Assembly: GCF_025999835.1 (NCBI RefSeq)
Contig: NZ_AP025628.1
Span: 186,001-250,000, forward strand
Source: Caldinitratiruptor microaerophilus
GTDB taxonomy: Bacteria; Bacillota; Sulfobacillia; Symbiobacteriales; ZC4RG38
DNA: 64,000 bases
Direction of reading: 5' to 3'
The position numbers and the translations under genes are program-made. Below, piece by piece: positions 13,231-30,310 of the stretch. Within the stretch, counting starts at the first letter, position 1. Each line of letters begins with the position of its first letter. Under the pieces are notes generated by a model. The model saw only the letters and a program-made list of their open reading frames with translations, ran no database searches and had not been told where the DNA came from.

Positions 13231-13332
13231 CTCTCGCGCCGGTCCGATTGTATTATCCGCAGAAACATGCAGCGGGTTCGGGTGTGGCGCGGCTGGCCCA
13301 CCGGAGACCGACGCGAACGGGAGGTGACGGCG

Positions 13333-14454
13333 GTGAGCGAGCGGGCTGCAGCCGGCTGGCCCCTGGCCTGGACCCTGGACGAACTTTCGGCCCGCCGGAT
13401 CGCCGAGATCCTCCACGACATCACCGGCTCCCGCGGCGTGGTCGTGACCGACGGGCGGACCCTCCTGGGGAGCGCCGGCGAGATCTGCACCCGGCACGAG
13501 CCTTGCCTGGGGCTCCGGGACCCGGCGGTGCGGGGGGCCCTACGGGCCCGGCGCCCCTGCCAGGCGCCGATCGGAACGGGGGAGCTGTGCGAGGACCGGG
13601 GGTGCCGGTGCGACCCCGGTACGGTGGCGCTCATCCCCTTGCTCCTGCACGGGGAAGTGGCCGGGGTGGTGAAGCTCTACACCCCGGCCACGTGTCCGTC
13701 GGGCCGGGACCTGGCCCGGCTCATGGCGGGCATCTCCAAGCTCATCGAGCTCCAACGGGCCGTGGCCGAGGCCGCGGTCCACAAGGAGCTGGTGGCCAAG
13801 GCCCGCCTCGAGGCGCTGCAGGCGCAGATCCGCCCTCACTTCCTCTTCAACACCCTCAATACCATCCTCCTGTACAGCTACACGGACATGCGCCGGGCCC
13901 GGGAGCTGCTGGTCAGGCTGGGAGACTTCTTCCGCCGCTCCCTCGGATCTCGCGGCAACTTCATCCCCCTGGTCGACGAGATCGAGTACCTGAACACGTA
14001 CCTCTACTTCGAAAAGGCCCGCTTCGGCGAGCGCCTCCGGCTGTCGATCCGGGTCGACCCCGCCGCCCTGTGGGTGGAGATCCCGGTGCTCACGCTGCAG
14101 CCCCTGGTGGAGAACGCGATCGTGCACGGGCTGGCGCCCCGGGAGGAAGGGGGCATGCTCCACATTCGCGTTCGGCGGCGGGGCCGCGAGGTCCACGCGG
14201 TAGTGGCCGACAGCGGCGTCGGCATGGGGCCGGAGGAGCGCCGGCGCGTGCTGGAGGCGGACTTCGGTACCGGTTCGGGCATCGGGCTGAACAACGTGAA
14301 CGACCGGCTCCGGGCGGTGTACGGTCCGGCGTACGGCCTCCGCATTCGCAGCCGCCGGGGGCGCGGAACGATCGTGCGGGTCCGGTTCCCGGTGCCCGAC
14401 CCGGGCGGGAGAGGAGGTGCACGAGGTGGCGCTCCGGGCGCTGATCGTCGATGA
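13333..14454 (+). CDS. Soluble LytS/YehU-type sensor histidine kinase with cysteine-rich GAF-like domain
   Basis: A 373-residue kinase of the LytS (His_kinase plus HATPase) class without any transmembrane helix. The kinase core starts near RLEALQAQIRPHFLFNTLNT, whose His is the phosphoacceptor; LVENAIVHG is the N box and DSGVGMG the G box. The N-terminal 150 residues look GAF-like and contain seven cysteines (ICTRHEPC, RRPC, LCEDRGCRC, ATCPS), which suggests metal or redox sensing. GTG 13333 is chosen because GGGAGGTG lies about eight bases upstream; longer starts are possible. The gene overlaps the LytTR regulator gene, forming a two-component pair. Confidence 0.87.
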   Translation: MSERAAAGWPLAWTLDELSARRIAEILHDITGSRGVVVTDGRTLLGSAGEICTRHEPCLGLRDPAVRGALRARRPCQAPIGTGELCEDRGCRCDPGTVALIPLLLHGEVAGVVKLYTPATCPSGRDLARLMAGISKLIELQRAVAEAAVHKELVAKARLEALQAQIRPHFLFNTLNTILLYSYTDMRRARELLVRLGDFFRRSLGSRGNFIPLVDEIEYLNTYLYFEKARFGERLRLSIRVDPAALWVEIPVLTLQPLVENAIVHGLAPREEGGMLHIRVRRRGREVHAVVADSGVGMGPEERRRVLEADFGTGSGIGLNNVNDRLRAVYGPAYGLRIRSRRGRGTIVRVRFPVPDPGGRGGARGGAPGADRR

Positions 14455-15253
14455 CGAGGCACCGGCCCGGCTCCAGCTCCGGCTTCGGCTGGAGCGGTTC
14501 CCGGAGGTCGAGGTGGTGGGGGAGGCGCAGAGCGGCCGGGAGGCGCTCGAACTCCTGCGGGCGCTCGACTACGACGTCGTGTTCATCGACATCCGCATGC
14601 CCGGGCTTTCGGGCCTCGAGGTCGCCGAGGCGCTCAAGAACCGGCAGCCCGCGCCCCGGGTCGTGTTCGTCACGGCGTACGAGGAGTATGCCCTACGAGC
14701 CTTCGGCGCCCGTGCCTTCGACTACCTCCTCAAACCGTTCGACGACGAGCGGCTGGCAGAGACCATCCGCCGGCTCCAGGAGGCGCAGCGGGAGCGCCAG
14801 GGGCCCGGGGGCGGCGATGCGGCCGGCGGTTCCGGCCGTCCGCGCGGAGAGGGCGAGGGTGGACGCACGGGCGAAGGCGCGCCCGGTGCCGGCCCCCGCG
14901 AGCTGCAGTGGCTGCTGGTGCAGCGGGACGGCGTGAGCGTCCCGCTGGCGGTACAGGACGTCATCTTCGTCGAGTCGCAGGGCGACTACGTCGCGGTGGT
15001 GACCCACGCCGGCCGCTTCCTCGCCCGCTACAGCATCCAGGAGCTCGCCCAGTGGCTGCCGGCGAGCCGGTTCGTCCGCTGCCACCGGAGCTACATCGTG
15101 AACGTCGCCTGCGTGAGAGAGATCGCCCCGATGTTCAACGGTACCTACCTCCTGCGGATGAAAGACCGGGAGCGCAGCGAGGTGCCGGTCAGCCGCAGCG
15201 GTGCCCGGCGGCTGAGGGGGCTCTTCTGGGTCGACGCCCGGGGCGGGGGATGA
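14426..15253 (+). CDS. LytTR-type response regulator
   Basis: A 275-residue response regulator. The receiver domain (about 1-115) begins ALRALIVDDEAPAR, has phosphoacceptor Asp in DVVFIDIRMPG and Lys in YLLKPF. A Gly-rich linker (about 125-155) leads to a LytTR DNA-binding domain with FVESQGDYVAVVTHAGRFL and FVRCHRSYIVNVACVREI. GTG 14426 is preferred because GAGGAGG sits eight bases upstream; GTG 14417 is an alternative. It overlaps the kinase gene by 29 bases. Targets are unknown; the actin-like gene 130 bases downstream is a candidate. Confidence 0.93.
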   Translation: MALRALIVDDEAPARLQLRLRLERFPEVEVVGEAQSGREALELLRALDYDVVFIDIRMPGLSGLEVAEALKNRQPAPRVVFVTAYEEYALRAFGARAFDYLLKPFDDERLAETIRRLQEAQRERQGPGGGDAAGGSGRPRGEGEGGRTGEGAPGAGPRELQWLLVQRDGVSVPLAVQDVIFVESQGDYVAVVTHAGRFLARYSIQELAQWLPASRFVRCHRSYIVNVACVREIAPMFNGTYLLRMKDRERSEVPVSRSGARRLRGLFWVDARGGG

Positions 15254-24938: not shown

Positions 24939-25619
24939 TCAGTCGAGGTAGCGCTTCAGCTGCTCTTCCCGGACGATCATCACGTCGCCCTCCCGGACCT
25001 CGATGGCCCCCTCGCGGCGGAAGTCGCCCAGAACCCGCGTCACCGTCTCCCGGGAGGCGCCGATGAGCCCGCCGATCTCCTGGTGGGTGAGGTCCAGCTT
25101 CATCCGGACCCCGCCCGGAACCTTCTCGCCGTGTTCCCGTGCGTGCTGGAGGAGGAGCGCGGCGAGGCGCTGCTGCACCCCGGACACGGACAGGCCGTGC
25201 ACGCGGTCCTGCGCCTGCCGGAGGCGCCAGGCCACCGTGCCCATGGTCCGGGCCGCCAGGGAGGGGATCTCTTCCAGCAGTGCGTGCAGGTCGTCCGCGC
25301 GGATCATCCAGATCAGCGAGTCCTCCACGGCCTGGGCGCTGGCCGGGTACGGCGAGCGGTCCAGGGCGACCACGAGGCCGAAGACCTGGTTGTCGGTCCA
25401 GATCGCGATGATCTGCTCGCGTCCCTCCGGCGAGACCCGGTACACCTTGACGCGTCCGTGGCGGACGAAGTACACGGCCTCGCCCGGTTCGCCCTCGCTG
25501 AAGATGACGGAGCCCTTCCGGTAGCGCCGCTCGTGCACGCAGGCCGCGACCCGCCGGAGCTCCTCGTCGCTGAGGCCGGCGAACATCGCGATGTCCCGCA
25601 GCGCTCCGGGCTCGAGCAT
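24939..25619 (-). CDS. Crp/Fnr-family transcriptional regulator
   Basis: A 226-residue regulator. The cyclic-nucleotide-binding domain (about 15-125) contains KGSVIFSEGEPGEAVYFVRHGRVKVYR, and a long dimerisation helix follows. The C-terminal winged helix includes LTHQEIGGLIGASRETVTRVLGDFRREG. No N-terminal cysteine cluster is present, so it is not an Fe-S FNR; the canonical cAMP-binding Arg/Ser are not evident, so the ligand is unknown. ATG 25617-25619 has GGAGGAG upstream and is preferred over a start 7 codons earlier. It is divergent from the acoR-type gene. Confidence 0.93.
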   Translation of the reverse strand: MLEPGALRDIAMFAGLSDEELRRVAACVHERRYRKGSVIFSEGEPGEAVYFVRHGRVKVYRVSPEGREQIIAIWTDNQVFGLVVALDRSPYPASAQAVEDSLIWMIRADDLHALLEEIPSLAARTMGTVAWRLRQAQDRVHGLSVSGVQQRLAALLLQHAREHGEKVPGGVRMKLDLTHQEIGGLIGASRETVTRVLGDFRREGAIEVREGDVMIVREEQLKRYLD

Positions 25620-25804: not shown

Positions 25805-26887
25805 ATGTTGGACGAGCGCCTCCTGCCATCCGCGCGCCCTGCCCCGGCGCACCGGTTGCGCGCGCTCTGGCGCGCCCGCGAGGCGTTCCTGGCCTCCGAG
25901 CCTGTCCGGCCGCCTGTCCGTCCCGTGGTCCTCGCCGCCTGGATGCGGTCTCGCCAGGCGGGGGTGGACCCGGCCCGCAAGGAGATCCCCCTCGTGCGAC
26001 CGGACGGCGGGGTGGCGGACGACCAGGCCGAGCGGCTCCTGCGCGCCGGCCGTCCCGTGGTCGCCACGGCCGGGGAACTGCTGCGCGGCACCGGGCACGG
26101 GGTCATCCTCGCCGACGCGCAGGGGGTCGTCCTCGCGGTGGCCGGCGACCGCCCGCTGGCCGCGGCGGCCGAGCGGGTCGGGTGTGTCCCCGGTGCCACC
26201 TGGGAGGAGCGCCTGGTGGGCAACAACGCGATCGGGACGAGCCTCCGGCTGGCGCGGCCCGTTCGCTTCGCCCACGCGGAGCACTTCTGCGAGGGGTGGG
26301 GGGACTGGACCTGCGCTGCGGTGCCCATCCGGTTGCCCGGCGAGGGGGCGGTCATCGGCAGCATCGACGTGAGCGGGTACCGGACCGGGGCGAGCCCCCG
26401 GGCGCTCGTGCTGGCCGCCCGGCTCGGCCGGGTGATCGAGAACCTGCTGGCCGGCCCCGGGTCCCGGGCGACCCCGCCGGGCGCGGCCGGGCCCCGCCGC
26501 CCGGAGGGCGGGAGCCTGCCGCCTTCCCGCCTCGTGGACGTGCCCGCGCCGCCGGGGCTCGTGATCCTGCGGCGGGGAGAACGGCGCCTGCTGGTGCGGG
26601 CCGACCAGGTCTACCTGTTCCGGGCGTCGGGCGGAGCGGTGTTCGCCCTGACCGACCAGGGGGAGTTTCCGGCGGAAGCGGACGGGCTCGTCACCCTGGA
26701 GGACCGCCTTGCCCCCTACGGCTTCTTCCGGACCGATCGGGCGCACCTGGTGAACCTGAACCGGGTGCGCGAGGTGCAGCCGATGTTCAACCGGACGCTG
26801 GTGCTCGTGCTCGGGAACCGGACGGCCACGGAGGTGCCGGTCTCCCGGCGCCGGGCGGCCGCCCTGCGGGAACTGCTGGGGCTGTGA
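25805..26887 (+). CDS. AcoR-type GAF sensor fused to a LytTR DNA-binding domain
   Basis: A 360-residue regulator. The first 220 residues match the sensory half of AcoR-type acetoin regulators: VVLAAWMRSRQAGVDP, a GAF domain with GVILADAQGVVLAV, then GNNAIGTSLRLARPV, AEHFCEGWGDWTCAAVPI and IGSIDVSG. AcoR would continue into a sigma54 AAA+ domain and a Fis helix. Here the remainder (about 250-358) is instead a LytTR domain, with GFFRTDRAHLVNLNRVREV and ATEVPVSRRR. The dehydrogenase operon it would control starts 148 bases downstream, behind three 21-bp-phased repeats. Start ATG 25805 follows GAGGGGG. Confidence 0.88.
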   Translation: MLDERLLPSARPAPAHRLRALWRAREAFLASEPVRPPVRPVVLAAWMRSRQAGVDPARKEIPLVRPDGGVADDQAERLLRAGRPVVATAGELLRGTGHGVILADAQGVVLAVAGDRPLAAAAERVGCVPGATWEERLVGNNAIGTSLRLARPVRFAHAEHFCEGWGDWTCAAVPIRLPGEGAVIGSIDVSGYRTGASPRALVLAARLGRVIENLLAGPGSRATPPGAAGPRRPEGGSLPPSRLVDVPAPPGLVILRRGERRLLVRADQVYLFRASGGAVFALTDQGEFPAEADGLVTLEDRLAPYGFFRTDRAHLVNLNRVREVQPMFNRTLVLVLGNRTATEVPVSRRRAAALRELLGL

Positions 26888-26902
26888 ACCGGGGACGGGG
26901 TG

Positions 26903-26953
26903 CCGCTCGTGACCCGATCCGTACCGCTCGTGGGCTGGCCGGGACCGCTCGTG
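26903..26953 (+). repeat. Three 9-bp direct repeats with exact 21-bp period (candidate LytTR operator)
   Basis: CCGCTCGTG occurs at 26903-26911, 26924-26932 and 26945-26953, each separated by 12 bases. LytTR-domain regulators such as AgrA bind pairs of about 9-bp direct repeats with 12-13-bp spacers. The array lies between the LytTR-type activator gene and the dehydrogenase operon it probably controls, and ends 9 bases before a TTGACT -35-like element at 26963. Confidence 0.75.
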
Positions 26954-26962
26954 TCCCGGCCT

Positions 26963-26968
26963 TTGACT
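26963..26968 (+). promoter_or_regulatory. -35 element of the dehydrogenase operon
   Basis: TTGACT, just downstream of the triple repeat. No good -10 is seen at 16-18 bases, which fits a promoter that needs an activator. TAGCGA at 26991 would need a 22-base spacer. Confidence 0.4.
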
Positions 26969-27035
26969 TGTCCCTGCCCCGGCGCGACGGTAGCGAGTGG
27001 GGAGAAATCGCCGACACAGGAGGGGAGTGCTGGGC

Positions 27036-28025
27036 ATGGCCGTGGATCGGACGACGCTTCTCACCATGTACCGGGACATGTGGACCATCCGCCTGTTCGA
27101 GGACGCCATGGCGGCCGCGTACCTGGAGGGCAAGCAGCCGGTCTTCAACATCGCCGCCGGGCCGGTCCCCGGGGAGATGCACCTGGCCGCCGGGCAGGAG
27201 CCGGTGGCGGTGGGGGTCTGCGCGCACCTGCGGCGCGAGGACGCCGTGGCGGGGACGCACCGGCCGCACCACTTCGCCATCGCCAAGGGCATGGACCTGC
27301 GGCGGATGGCCGCCGAGATCTTCGGCAAGGTCACCGGTCTGGGCCGCGGCAAGGGCGGCCACATGCACCTCTTCGATCCGGAGACGCACTTCGGCTGCGG
27401 CGGGATCGTGGGCGCGGGCATCCCGCACGCGGTGGGCGCTGCCCTGGCGTTCAAGAAGCAGGGCCGGGACAACGTGGCCGTCGCCTTCTTCGGCGACGGG
27501 GCGGCCAACCAGGGCGCCTTCCACGAGGGGCTCAACCTGGCGGCGCTGTGGAAGCTGCCCGTGATCTTCGTGGTCGAGGACAACGCCTGGGCGATCTCGG
27601 TGCCCAAGGCGAAGTCGACCGCCATCGCCTCCAACGCCGACCGGGCTGCCGCCTACGGGATCCCCGGCGTGTACGTGGGCGAGAACGACGCCCTGGCCGT
27701 GTACGAGGCGGCGGGCGAGGCCGTGGCCCGGGCGCGCCGCGGCGAGGGTCCGACCCTCCTGGAGGTCAAGACCGACCGCTACTACGGCCACTTCCAGGGC
27801 GACCCGGAGGTGTACCGGCCGAAGGACGAGGTGCCGCGCCTCAAGGCGAACGACCCGATCGACCGGCTCGGCCGCCGGATCCTCGAGACCGGCGCCGGCA
27901 CCCAGGCCGACCTGGACGCGGCCCGGGAGGAGGCCCGGGCGAAGGTCGACGACGCCTTCCGCTTCGCCCGGGAGAGCCCGTATCCGTCGCCCGAGGAAGC
28001 CCTGATGCACGTGTTCGCGGAGTAG
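27036..28025 (+). CDS. acoA: Acetoin/2-oxoacid dehydrogenase E1 alpha subunit
   Basis: Thiamine-diphosphate-dependent decarboxylase alpha chain, 329 residues. The ThDP-binding motif runs from FFGDGAANQGAFHEGLN through VIFVVEDN. Other family segments are GEMHLAAGQEPVAVG, THRPHHFAIAKGMD and KGGHMHLFDPETHFGCGGIVG. The HRPHHFAIAKG and MHLFD pattern resembles AcoA of acetoin dehydrogenase more than pyruvate dehydrogenase. ATG 27036 lies 12 bases after GGAGGGGAG. It is the first gene of acoABC, and the AcoR-type regulator upstream supports acetoin as substrate; 2-oxoacids cannot be excluded. Confidence 0.88.
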   Translation: MAVDRTTLLTMYRDMWTIRLFEDAMAAAYLEGKQPVFNIAAGPVPGEMHLAAGQEPVAVGVCAHLRREDAVAGTHRPHHFAIAKGMDLRRMAAEIFGKVTGLGRGKGGHMHLFDPETHFGCGGIVGAGIPHAVGAALAFKKQGRDNVAVAFFGDGAANQGAFHEGLNLAALWKLPVIFVVEDNAWAISVPKAKSTAIASNADRAAAYGIPGVYVGENDALAVYEAAGEAVARARRGEGPTLLEVKTDRYYGHFQGDPEVYRPKDEVPRLKANDPIDRLGRRILETGAGTQADLDAAREEARAKVDDAFRFARESPYPSPEEALMHVFAE

Positions 28026-28038
28026 GGGGGTGTCCGAC

Positions 28039-29055
28039 ATGGCGGTGGAGACTCGCCGGCTCACCATGGGCAAGGCGATCGCCGAGGCGATCGCGCAGGA
28101 GATGGAGCGCGACCCGCGCGTCTTCGTCATGGGCGAGGACGTCGGCGTGTACGGGGGCATCTTCGGCGCCACGCAGGGCCTCTACGAGAAGTTCGGCCCC
28201 GAGCGGGTCATGGACACCCCGATCTCGGAGACGGGCTTCATCGGCGCGGCGCTGGGCGCGGCGCTGGAGGGGATGCGGCCCATCGCCGAGCTGATGTTCG
28301 TCGACTTCTTCGGCGTGGCGATGGACCAGATCTACAACCACATCGCGAAGATCCACTACATGTCGGGCGGCGGGTTCAAGGTGCCCGTCGTCATCATGAC
28401 GGCGATCGGCGGCGGGTACAGCGACGCCGCCCAGCACTCCCAGTGCCTGTACGGGCTCTTCGCCCACGTGCCGGGGCTCAAGATCGTGGTGCCCTCGAAC
28501 GCGTACGATGCGAAGGGCCTCATGATCCAGGCCATCCGGGATGACAACCCGGTCATGTACTTCTTCCACAAAGGCCTGATGGGCCTGGGGTGGATGACCC
28601 CGCAGCCCTCGGCCATGTCCGAGGTACCCGAGGAGCCGTACACGATCCCCTTCGGCAAGGCGGACGTGAAGCGGCCGGGGCGGGACGTGACGGTCGTGAG
28701 CGTGGCGATGGGCGTGCACCGGGCCATGGAGGCGGCGGAGGTCCTCGCCCGGGACGGGATCGAGGTGGAGGTCCTCGACCTGCGCACGCTCGTGCCGCTC
28801 GACCGGGACGCCATCGTCGAGTCGGTGAAGAGGACCCACCGGCTCCTGGTGGTCGACGAGGACTACCTGAGCTACGGCATGTCCGGCGAGGTGGCGGCGA
28901 CGGTGGCGGAGCGGGCCCTCGACTACCTCGACGCGCCCGTGCGCCGCATCGCCGTGCCCGACGTGCCCATCCCGTACAGCCGCCCGCTGGAGCAGTTCGT
29001 GCTGCCGAGCGCCGACAAGATCGTCGCCGCGGTGCGGGAGATGCTGGGCGAATAA
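28039..29055 (+). CDS. acoB: Acetoin/2-oxoacid dehydrogenase E1 beta subunit
   Basis: A 338-residue beta chain with the transketolase pyrimidine-binding fold. Key segments are VFVMGEDVGVYGGIFGAT, DTPISETGFIGAALGAALEG, ELMFVDFFGVAMDQI, and the C-terminal EVLDLRTLVPLDRDAIVESV. It pairs with the alpha chain to form the alpha2beta2 E1. ATG 28039 has GGGGGG nine bases upstream; a GTG at 28030 is an alternative. It sits 13 bases after acoA. Confidence 0.92.
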   Translation: MAVETRRLTMGKAIAEAIAQEMERDPRVFVMGEDVGVYGGIFGATQGLYEKFGPERVMDTPISETGFIGAALGAALEGMRPIAELMFVDFFGVAMDQIYNHIAKIHYMSGGGFKVPVVIMTAIGGGYSDAAQHSQCLYGLFAHVPGLKIVVPSNAYDAKGLMIQAIRDDNPVMYFFHKGLMGLGWMTPQPSAMSEVPEEPYTIPFGKADVKRPGRDVTVVSVAMGVHRAMEAAEVLARDGIEVEVLDLRTLVPLDRDAIVESVKRTHRLLVVDEDYLSYGMSGEVAATVAERALDYLDAPVRRIAVPDVPIPYSRPLEQFVLPSADKIVAAVREMLGE

Positions 29056-29071: not shown

Positions 29072-30310
29072 TTGCCGTACGAGTTCCGGCTCCCTCTTGA
29101 CATCGCAGGTCCCGACGCAGAAGGCTTCGTGGTGAACTGGTTCAAGGCGGAGGGGGAAGCCGTCCGCGCCGGCGAGCTGCTCCTGGAGGTCCAGTTCGAC
29201 AAGGTCGCCACGGAGGTGGCCGCGCCGAGGGACGGTGTCCTCGCACGCATCCGGGTCCCGGCCGGGCAGCCGGTCCGCCCCGGCGACGTCGTGTGCGAGA
29301 TCGCGGAGCGGCCGGGAGCCCCCGCGGAGGTCTCCGCCGGGGCGGGGTCCGCCGCCGCCCCGGCGGCCGCGGGCGGCCCGACCGGGGCCACCGGCGCTGC
29401 CCCGGCGGCCCCGGTCTCGCCGGCGGCGCGCCGCCTGGCGAAGGAGCTGGGCGTCGACCTGTCCCGGGTCCAGGGGAGCGGCCCGGGTGGCCGGATCACC
29501 GAGGCCGACGTGCGCCGCGCCGCGGAGGCGGCAGGCGCGCCTGCCGGGCCCGGCCCTGCCGGCGGACCGGCTGCGCCCGCCGGGACCGCCGCGGCCGCCG
29601 GCCAGCGCCCCGTGCCGATCGCCGGCGTACAGGGCCGCTGGGAGCCGCTCCCGCCGGCCCAGCGCGTCCTGGCGTCCCGGATGGCCCAGAGCATGCGGGA
29701 GGCGCCGCAGCTCACCCTGGAGCGGCAGGCCGACGTGACAGCGCTCGTCCGCCGCCGGGAGGCGCTGCGGGAGCAGGGCTCCCGGGTCACCCTGACCGAC
29801 CTCCTGCACCGCGCCGTGGCCCTCGCCCTGCGGGAGCATCCCCGTCTCCAGGCCGTCTGGCAGGAGGACGCCCTGTTCGTGCCCGAGGCGATCAACCTGG
29901 GCGTGGCCGTGGCGGACGGCGACCTCCTCGTGGTGCCGGTCATCCGGGGGGCGGATCGCCTGAGCCTGGAGGAGCTGGCGGCCGAGCGGGAGCGACTGGT
30001 GGCGGCCGCGCGGGCAGGCACCCTGACCGCACGGGACCTGGAGGGCGGCACGTTCACCGTCACGAACCTGGGAGGCTACGGCATCGACTTCTTCACGCCC
30101 ATCCTGAACCCGCCCCAGAGCGCGATCCTCGGGGTGGGGCGGGTGGCGGACGCCCTCGCCCTGGAGGGTGAGCGCGTGGTCGCCCGCAAGCTGCTGACGC
30201 TGAGCCTCACCATCGACCACCGCGTTGTCAACGGGGCGCCGGCGGCGCTGTTCCTGGACCGGCTCGCCGGGCTCCTCGCGGAGCCGGAAGCCTGGGCGAC
30301 CGTTTCCTGA
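29072..30310 (+). CDS. acoC: Dihydrolipoamide acyltransferase E2 component
   Basis: A 412-residue E2. The single lipoyl domain (about 1-80) carries the lipoyl lysine in VQFDKVATEV. An Ala/Pro/Gly linker leads to a peripheral-subunit-binding domain (about 115-150: SPAARRLAKELGVDL, GSGPGGRITEADV). A second linker leads to the acyltransferase core (about 190-410). The active-site motif reads DHRVVNG, where most family members have DHRxxDG; the catalytic His is kept. TTG start at 29072 with GAGGTGG upstream. No E3 gene follows; E3 must be encoded elsewhere. A strong hairpin ends the operon. Confidence 0.9.
   Translation: MPYEFRLPLDIAGPDAEGFVVNWFKAEGEAVRAGELLLEVQFDKVATEVAAPRDGVLARIRVPAGQPVRPGDVVCEIAERPGAPAEVSAGAGSAAAPAAAGGPTGATGAAPAAPVSPAARRLAKELGVDLSRVQGSGPGGRITEADVRRAAEAAGAPAGPGPAGGPAAPAGTAAAAGQRPVPIAGVQGRWEPLPPAQRVLASRMAQSMREAPQLTLERQADVTALVRRREALREQGSRVTLTDLLHRAVALALREHPRLQAVWQEDALFVPEAINLGVAVADGDLLVVPVIRGADRLSLEELAAERERLVAAARAGTLTARDLEGGTFTVTNLGGYGIDFFTPILNPPQSAILGVGRVADALALEGERVVARKLLTLSLTIDHRVVNGAPAALFLDRLAGLLAEPEAWATVS

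Follow-up and report, generated by a model that had tools for sequence, protein, structure and literature searches.

Introduction

Proteins with a LytTR domain are known mainly as regulators of virulence and bacteriocin genes that work in two-component systems or are held by a membrane inhibitor. In the published promoters of LytTR activators, 9-bp repeats are usually separated by 12-bp spacers and show a strong bias toward a position 10 bp before the -35 element, as in the S. carnosus example ACCGCTTGT-12-ACCGCTTAT-10 (PMC6193735). Three repeats have been described for two one-component members of the family. RcoM of Paraburkholderia xenovorans, a PAS-LytTR protein, is given as an activator that binds upstream of the -35 element to three direct repeats at 12-13 bp intervals (cited in PMC11347149), and CoxC, likewise a one-component LytTR protein, represses from an operator of three repeats (PMC11347149). 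In the literature that we found, the three-box one-component members were previously known for CO sensing only.

Here we describe a locus in Caldinitratiruptor microaerophilus, a bacterium close to Symbiobacterium with a 3.60 Mb genome of 71% GC (PMC9933637), whose regulator-operator pair is a GAF-sensor variant within the known three-box one-component LytTR regulators, RcoM and CoxC. The window, by which we mean the whole stretch of 64,000 nucleotides that was analysed (contig NZ_AP025628.1, positions 186,001 to 250,000), has a G+C content of 73%. Ten kb upstream of the regulator-operator locus, at 13267-15253, it also encodes an ordinary pair of a LytS-type kinase and a LytTR response regulator.

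Results

A sigma54-activator type sensor with a LytTR output

The regulator is encoded on the + strand and comprises the following features.

25805-26887, + strand: one-component regulator, GAF-LytTR, 360 aa (open reading frame, Pfam, relatives and structure model)
26051-26440, + strand: GAF sensor domain, residues 83-212 (Pfam, E 5.8e-9)
26582-26878, + strand: LytTR DNA-binding domain, residues 260-358 (Pfam PF04397, E 1.3e-17; Foldseek)

A Pfam scan of the 360 residues returned GAF and LytTR only, with no AAA+ domain, no Fis helix-turn-helix and no heme-PAS or MHYT CO sensor. The structure model, built from a 10-sequence alignment, has a mean pLDDT of 71 with LytTR blocks at about 87-96, and Foldseek matched its C-terminal part to the LytTR domain 3d6w (TM 0.91 by target length) and to the AgrA-DNA structure 3bs1 (0.79). 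Among solved folds, the whole model is matched best by E. coli DhaR(N) (4lrx, E 3.4e-10), which covers the sensor part, and DhaR is also the top NCBIfam match of the sensor half, far under the cut-off. The Pfam assignments and the DhaR(N) match bear out the preliminary description of this DNA, which had proposed an AcoR-type GAF half with LytTR in place of the AAA+ and Fis domains; judged by these matches, the regulator combines a sensor half of sigma54-activator (AcoR/DhaR) type with a LytTR output. The genome has sigma54 together with two GAF-type sigma54 activators, paralogues that carry AAA+ and Fis domains, so a missing sigma54 does not account for the new output domain.

The three top fold matches are the DhaR(N)-DhaK and DhaR(N)-DhaL complexes. 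Since DhaR(N) was solved with its partner enzymes, the GAF domain need not bind a small molecule and a protein signal is possible: with the same regulator and operator, the GAF could sense a protein such as free E1/E2 subunits or another pathway enzyme, in the manner of the E. coli DhaR N-terminal half contacting DhaK and DhaL. These complexes and the NCBIfam match speak for such a sensor, whereas the window protein is without the PAS-like second sensor part that is present in its relatives from genomes G002 and G061 (see below), and no dha genes are adjacent; we rate a protein signal as rather unlikely.

A predicted three-box operator ahead of a putative -35 element

Directly behind the regulator, CCGCTCGTG occurs on the + strand at 26903-26911, 26924-26932 and 26945-26953, in steps of exactly 21 bp, and TTGACT follows on the same strand at 26963-26968, 9 bp past the last CCGCTCGTG, exactly as had been claimed. 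The LytTR register fits better when shifted left by a single base, with sites starting at 26902, 26923 and 26944; this places the -35 element exactly 10 bp after the last LytTR site. In this register the operator consists of three (G/A)CCGCTCGT sites with 12-bp spacers.

26902-26910, + strand: LytTR box 1, GCCGCTCGT, predicted site (sequence; shuffle statistics)
26923-26931, + strand: LytTR box 2, ACCGCTCGT, predicted site (sequence; shuffle statistics)
26944-26952, + strand: LytTR box 3, ACCGCTCGT, predicted site (sequence; shuffle statistics)
26963-26968, + strand: putative -35 TTGACT, 10 bp past box 3 (5/6 match; equal offset in G129 and G061)
26986-26991, + strand: possible weak -10 GACGGT, 17-bp spacer, 2/6 matches, a tentative assignment

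The layout matches that of the published LytTR-activator promoters and the letters are near-identical (PMC6193735). The preliminary description had taken 9-bp repeats with 12-bp spacers as the LytTR site geometry, which holds for LytTR generally, although the usual number of repeats is two and three is the RcoM/CoxC pattern. In 5000 dinucleotide shuffles, the intergenic region never reached the observed triplet score, and a chance repeat is ruled out by these shuffles together with the orthologous gaps described below. Exact CCGCTCGTG is present four times in the window, the fourth copy being at 25527 inside the FNR/CRP-like gene, and an exact 21-bp pair of CCGCTCGTG exists at one place in the 3,599,694-bp single-contig genome, namely this operator. 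A looser triplet, CCGYT at 21-bp steps, was found genome-wide at 2 places against 2-3 in the reversed control, which makes the loose pattern uninformative when taken by itself; with the loose triplet at control level and the exact pair nowhere else in the genome, a second target cannot be named. Matches to a sigma54 promoter (-24/-12) in the gap between regulator and E1α are at chance level, which, with the absence of AAA+ and Fis, agrees with the earlier proposal of sigma54-independent control.

The placement of the boxes bears on the direction of regulation. The regulator might be a repressor that leaves the DNA on meeting its signal, for which CoxC offers the precedent of a one-component LytTR protein repressing from a three-repeat operator (PMC11347149) and for which the good -35 element of the window (5/6) would be suitable. 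The CoxC sites, however, overlap the -35 element, whereas the window sites end 10 bp upstream of it at the published activator position, and the poor -10 of the window is expected of an activated promoter, so that we hold repression to be improbable. Because the boxes lie 10 bp upstream of the -35, the regulator probably activates the neighbouring operon.

Conservation of the regulator and operator in other Bacillota

The regulator gene stands directly upstream of E1α in four genomes from at least three families: the window genome, G002 of its own family, G129 of its order and G061, which belongs to a different family in the class. As in the window, the regulator of the linked genomes precedes E1α-E1β-E2 genes; that of G129 is cut by a contig end, which leaves the LytTR part alone visible. 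The preliminary description had staked the operator on the repeat recurring in relatives that carry this gene pair, and we searched the orthologous gaps, which are independent, with a box motif taken from the window alone. The G129 gap holds the triplet ACCGCCCAC, ACCGCTCAG, CCCACTCAG at 21/21 bp (p=0.0038), and the G061 gap the triplet ACCGTTGAA, ACCGTTCGT, ACCGCTCCC at 20/20 bp (p=0.0002). The G002 gap contains a recognisable pair alone, TCCGTTCAG and ACCGCTCAC, 21 bp apart (p=0.009 when scored with the published consensus and 0.18 under the strict motif), at a distance from the regulator stop codon that equals the window's and with a degenerate box 3. The best -35 element lies exactly 10 bp past box 3 in the window, G129 and G061, and the promoters of the latter two, TTGGCA-18-TACAAT in G129 and TTGCCC-18-CAAAAT in G061, each have a good -10. 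Across these genomes, the comparison indicates that the regulator-operator pair is real and conserved. After the regulator stop codon in G002 (loci L013/L050), there is also an extra ACCGCTTGT that starts 8 bp upstream of the first paired box and is out of phase.

This linkage bears on whether the operator could serve another LytTR protein, for instance the LytS/LytTR pair at 13267-15253, with the adjacency of the GAF-LytTR gene being incidental. The genome does have at least three further LytTR proteins, and the sites of different family members look alike (PMC6193735); against this, the GAF-LytTR gene adjoins E1α in all four genomes, with LytTR boxes in every gap, and we regard service to another LytTR protein as very improbable indeed.

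The downstream E1α lies outside the AcoA clade

Three genes follow the putative promoter.

27036-28025, + strand: E1 alpha subunit of a TPP-dependent 2-oxoacid/acetoin-type dehydrogenase, distinct subfamily, not AcoA clade (Pfam E1_dh; tree; 10-aa insertion)
28030-29055, + strand: E1 beta subunit (Pfam; PRK09212 subfamily above cut-off)
29072-30310, + strand: E2 acyltransferase with lipoyl, E3-binding and catalytic domains (Pfam)

The preliminary description had called these genes acoABC and the locus an acetoin switch. The E1α tree joins the window protein (100/99) to its orthologues in Bacillota and to two plasmid-encoded proteins, one of Gemmobacter, with 62.5% identity to it, and one of Halobaculum. 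It is own_729, the E1α encoded at 729 kb in the same genome, that groups (97/94) with the AcoAs adjoining butanediol/acetoin genes in Enterococcus and Acinetobacter, in a clade that also takes in the Mycetohabitans AcoA beside an acetoin-dehydrogenase E2. A 10-residue insertion (PVFNIAAGPV in the window protein) is common to the members of the window clade, which also have HR(P/A)HH where the AcoAs have HRGHGH, and the window E2 scores 57 bits to PRK14875, the acetoin-dehydrogenase E2, versus 257 bits to PDH E2. On this evidence the window E1/E2 enzyme is a subfamily separate from acetoin dehydrogenase, and the tree, the insertion and HR(P/A)HH lead us to reject acoABC as a clade assignment.

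An acetoin signal acting on an acetoin dehydrogenase operon would suit the AcoR/DhaR type of the sensor half and the 46% identity of the window E1α to an E. faecium protein encoded beside 2,3-butanediol dehydrogenase. With the E1α outside the AcoA clade and bearing its own insertion and HR(P/A)HH, both the acoABC label and the acetoin signal are left unsupported; the signal is probably not acetoin, and we consider the combination of acetoin signal and acetoin dehydrogenase improbable.

The E1α subfamily with the insertion occurs in Bacillota MAGs, a Gemmobacter plasmid and a Halobaculum plasmid; its members with the insertion and HR(P/A)HH include window 27036-28025, L154 7001-7984 and L155 6028-7053. 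At 729 kb in the window genome, the AcoA-clade E1α-E1β-E2 operon corresponds to L167 5319-8611, and no sigma54 activator was seen beside it in the stretch listed.

Related regulators in actinobacteria

A scan of the LytTR part against 84,980 species found, besides the linked Bacillota loci, many GAF-type-LytTR proteins in actinobacteria, in genera that include Geodermatophilus, Pseudonocardia, Saccharopolyspora and Arthrobacter. By domain content, the GAF-LytTR architecture is therefore not unique to the window. The actinobacterial proteins are GAF-PAS-LytTR regulators with an extra PAS-like part, as in G002 and G061, and their genes adjoin those for Zn-alcohol dehydrogenase, PQQ alcohol dehydrogenase or KatG. 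In most of them, a 21-bp triplet faces a divergent gene for an alcohol dehydrogenase. Their GAF part is poorly recognised by Pfam, yet aligns lengthwise with the window GAF.

With a strict box NCCGYTCRT at steps of exactly 21 bp, the actinobacterial loci gave 11 triplets of at least 22/24 in 136 kb, and neither reversed sequence nor 768 kb of other fetched loci contained any; as the motif was tightened after the first matches and the loci are related, these counts are descriptive. Ten of the 11 triplets are found in antisense orientation within the opening codons of the regulator gene, where box 3 falls on the start codon (around 2850-2950 in L066, L067, L118, L122, L123, L126 and L127, and at about 1923 in L079, 2774 in L060 and 1453 in L062). 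In most, a TTG lies 10 or 11 bp past box 3 toward the divergent dehydrogenase, and in the loci examined this -35-like TTG faces a divergent Zn-alcohol dehydrogenase gene. The proteins encoded there accordingly start with MNGxxxxTNGxxxxTSG, a pattern with a 7-residue period.

When the box was defined more loosely, 13 matches were obtained at the actinobacterial loci versus 8 in the reversed control, and for this reason the strict motif alone was relied on. A loose-motif scan upstream of the actinobacterial regulators returned a few triplets, and directly downstream of them none was convincing (17 loci, best p 0.047). LytTR triplets or partial triplets were also noted at or just past the end of katG, antisense, before a PQQ-associated gene (L097 about 6472, L072 about 6487, L107 about 6678).

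The GAF tree places the LytTR proteins of Bacillota together in a single clade (96/93), which sits amid sigma54 activators and is separate from the actinobacterial proteins. Two independent domain swaps are possible and are favoured by this tree; a single origin of the Bacillota and actinobacterial GAF-LytTR proteins is not rejected (p-AU 0.163). These proteins may belong to a sigma54-free family of one-component activators that spans both phyla, in which sensors of the sigma54-activator type sit on LytTR and one operator rule is shared, three LytTR boxes in 21-bp steps ending 10 bp short of a sigma70 -35, with an undescribed TPP-dependent dehydrogenase subfamily as the target of the Bacillota lineage and with the actinobacterial operator in the regulator's first codons; we hold this to be evenly balanced between right and wrong.

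Discussion

We propose a model for the control of the dehydrogenase operon that most reasonably fits these observations. The product of gene 25805-26887 would be a soluble one-component transcription activator, in which an N-terminal GAF module of the DhaR/AcoR type, without the PAS-like part, AAA+ or Fis, controls the LytTR domain. LytTR units would sit side by side, on one helix face, on the three (G/A)CCGCTCGT direct repeats, which are 21 bp apart and end 10 bp before the -35 element, and the bound units would recruit a sigma70-type polymerase that transcribes E1α-E1β-E2. The signal is probably the substrate of the window E1/E2 enzyme or a relative of that substrate. We consider it likely that a GAF-LytTR activator on three boxes upstream of a sigma70-type -35 drives E1α-E1β-E2. 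The domains, the repeat and its statistics, the conserved linkage and the conserved -35 offset are read directly from the DNA.

Several observations weigh against this model. The -10 of the window is weak, box 3 of G002 is degenerate, the known linked loci number only four, and DhaR(N), the closest solved sensor, was seen in complex with enzyme subunits. Furthermore CoxC, a three-box LytTR regulator, represses, though its boxes overlap the -35 (PMC11347149). Binding, the side-by-side occupancy, activation rather than repression and a small-molecule signal are the steps of the model that we infer.

The locus clearly exemplifies the transfer of a soluble metabolic sensor from the body of a sigma54 activator to a LytTR output, with the operator co-conserved. 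As the operator is co-conserved with the regulator, the protein and its DNA site are both defined and ready to test. The locus also flags a subfamily of E1/E2 dehydrogenases, whose substrate the regulator could report.

Set beside the sigma54 activators AcoR and DhaR, the window regulator has the same N-terminal GAF-type sensor half, but they have AAA+ and Fis domains whereas it is without both and sigma54 promoter matches are at chance. The LytTR Regulatory Systems (HdrRM/BrsRM type), which activate, resemble it in their 9-bp repeats of ACCRCTTRN type, separated by 12-bp spacers and in many cases placed 10 bp ahead of the -35 (PMC6193735). They differ in having two repeats and a regulator without a sensor domain that is held by a membrane inhibitor (PMC6193735); no membrane inhibitor is adjacent to the window regulator, whose neighbours are the FNR/CRP-like regulator and E1α. 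The actinobacterial GAF-PAS-LytTR regulators share the architecture, save for the extra PAS-like part, as well as the 21-bp-phased triplets and the TTG about 10 bp on, and differ in their neighbour genes, in an operator at their own gene start that faces a divergent gene, and in forming a separate sensor clade.

CoxC of Afipia carboxidovorans, an MHYT-LytTR protein, needs three repeats for binding, and differs in its membrane-bound MHYT CO sensor, its action as a repressor and its operator over the -35 (PMC11347149). RcoM, as far as the cited account describes it, resembles the window regulator as a one-chain sensor-LytTR protein with three repeats upstream of the -35, and differs in its heme-PAS CO sensor, its cox genes and its box TTCNNGCA; the window system, by comparison, has a GAF sensor, the boxes (A/G)CCGCTCGT and an E1/E2 dehydrogenase operon.
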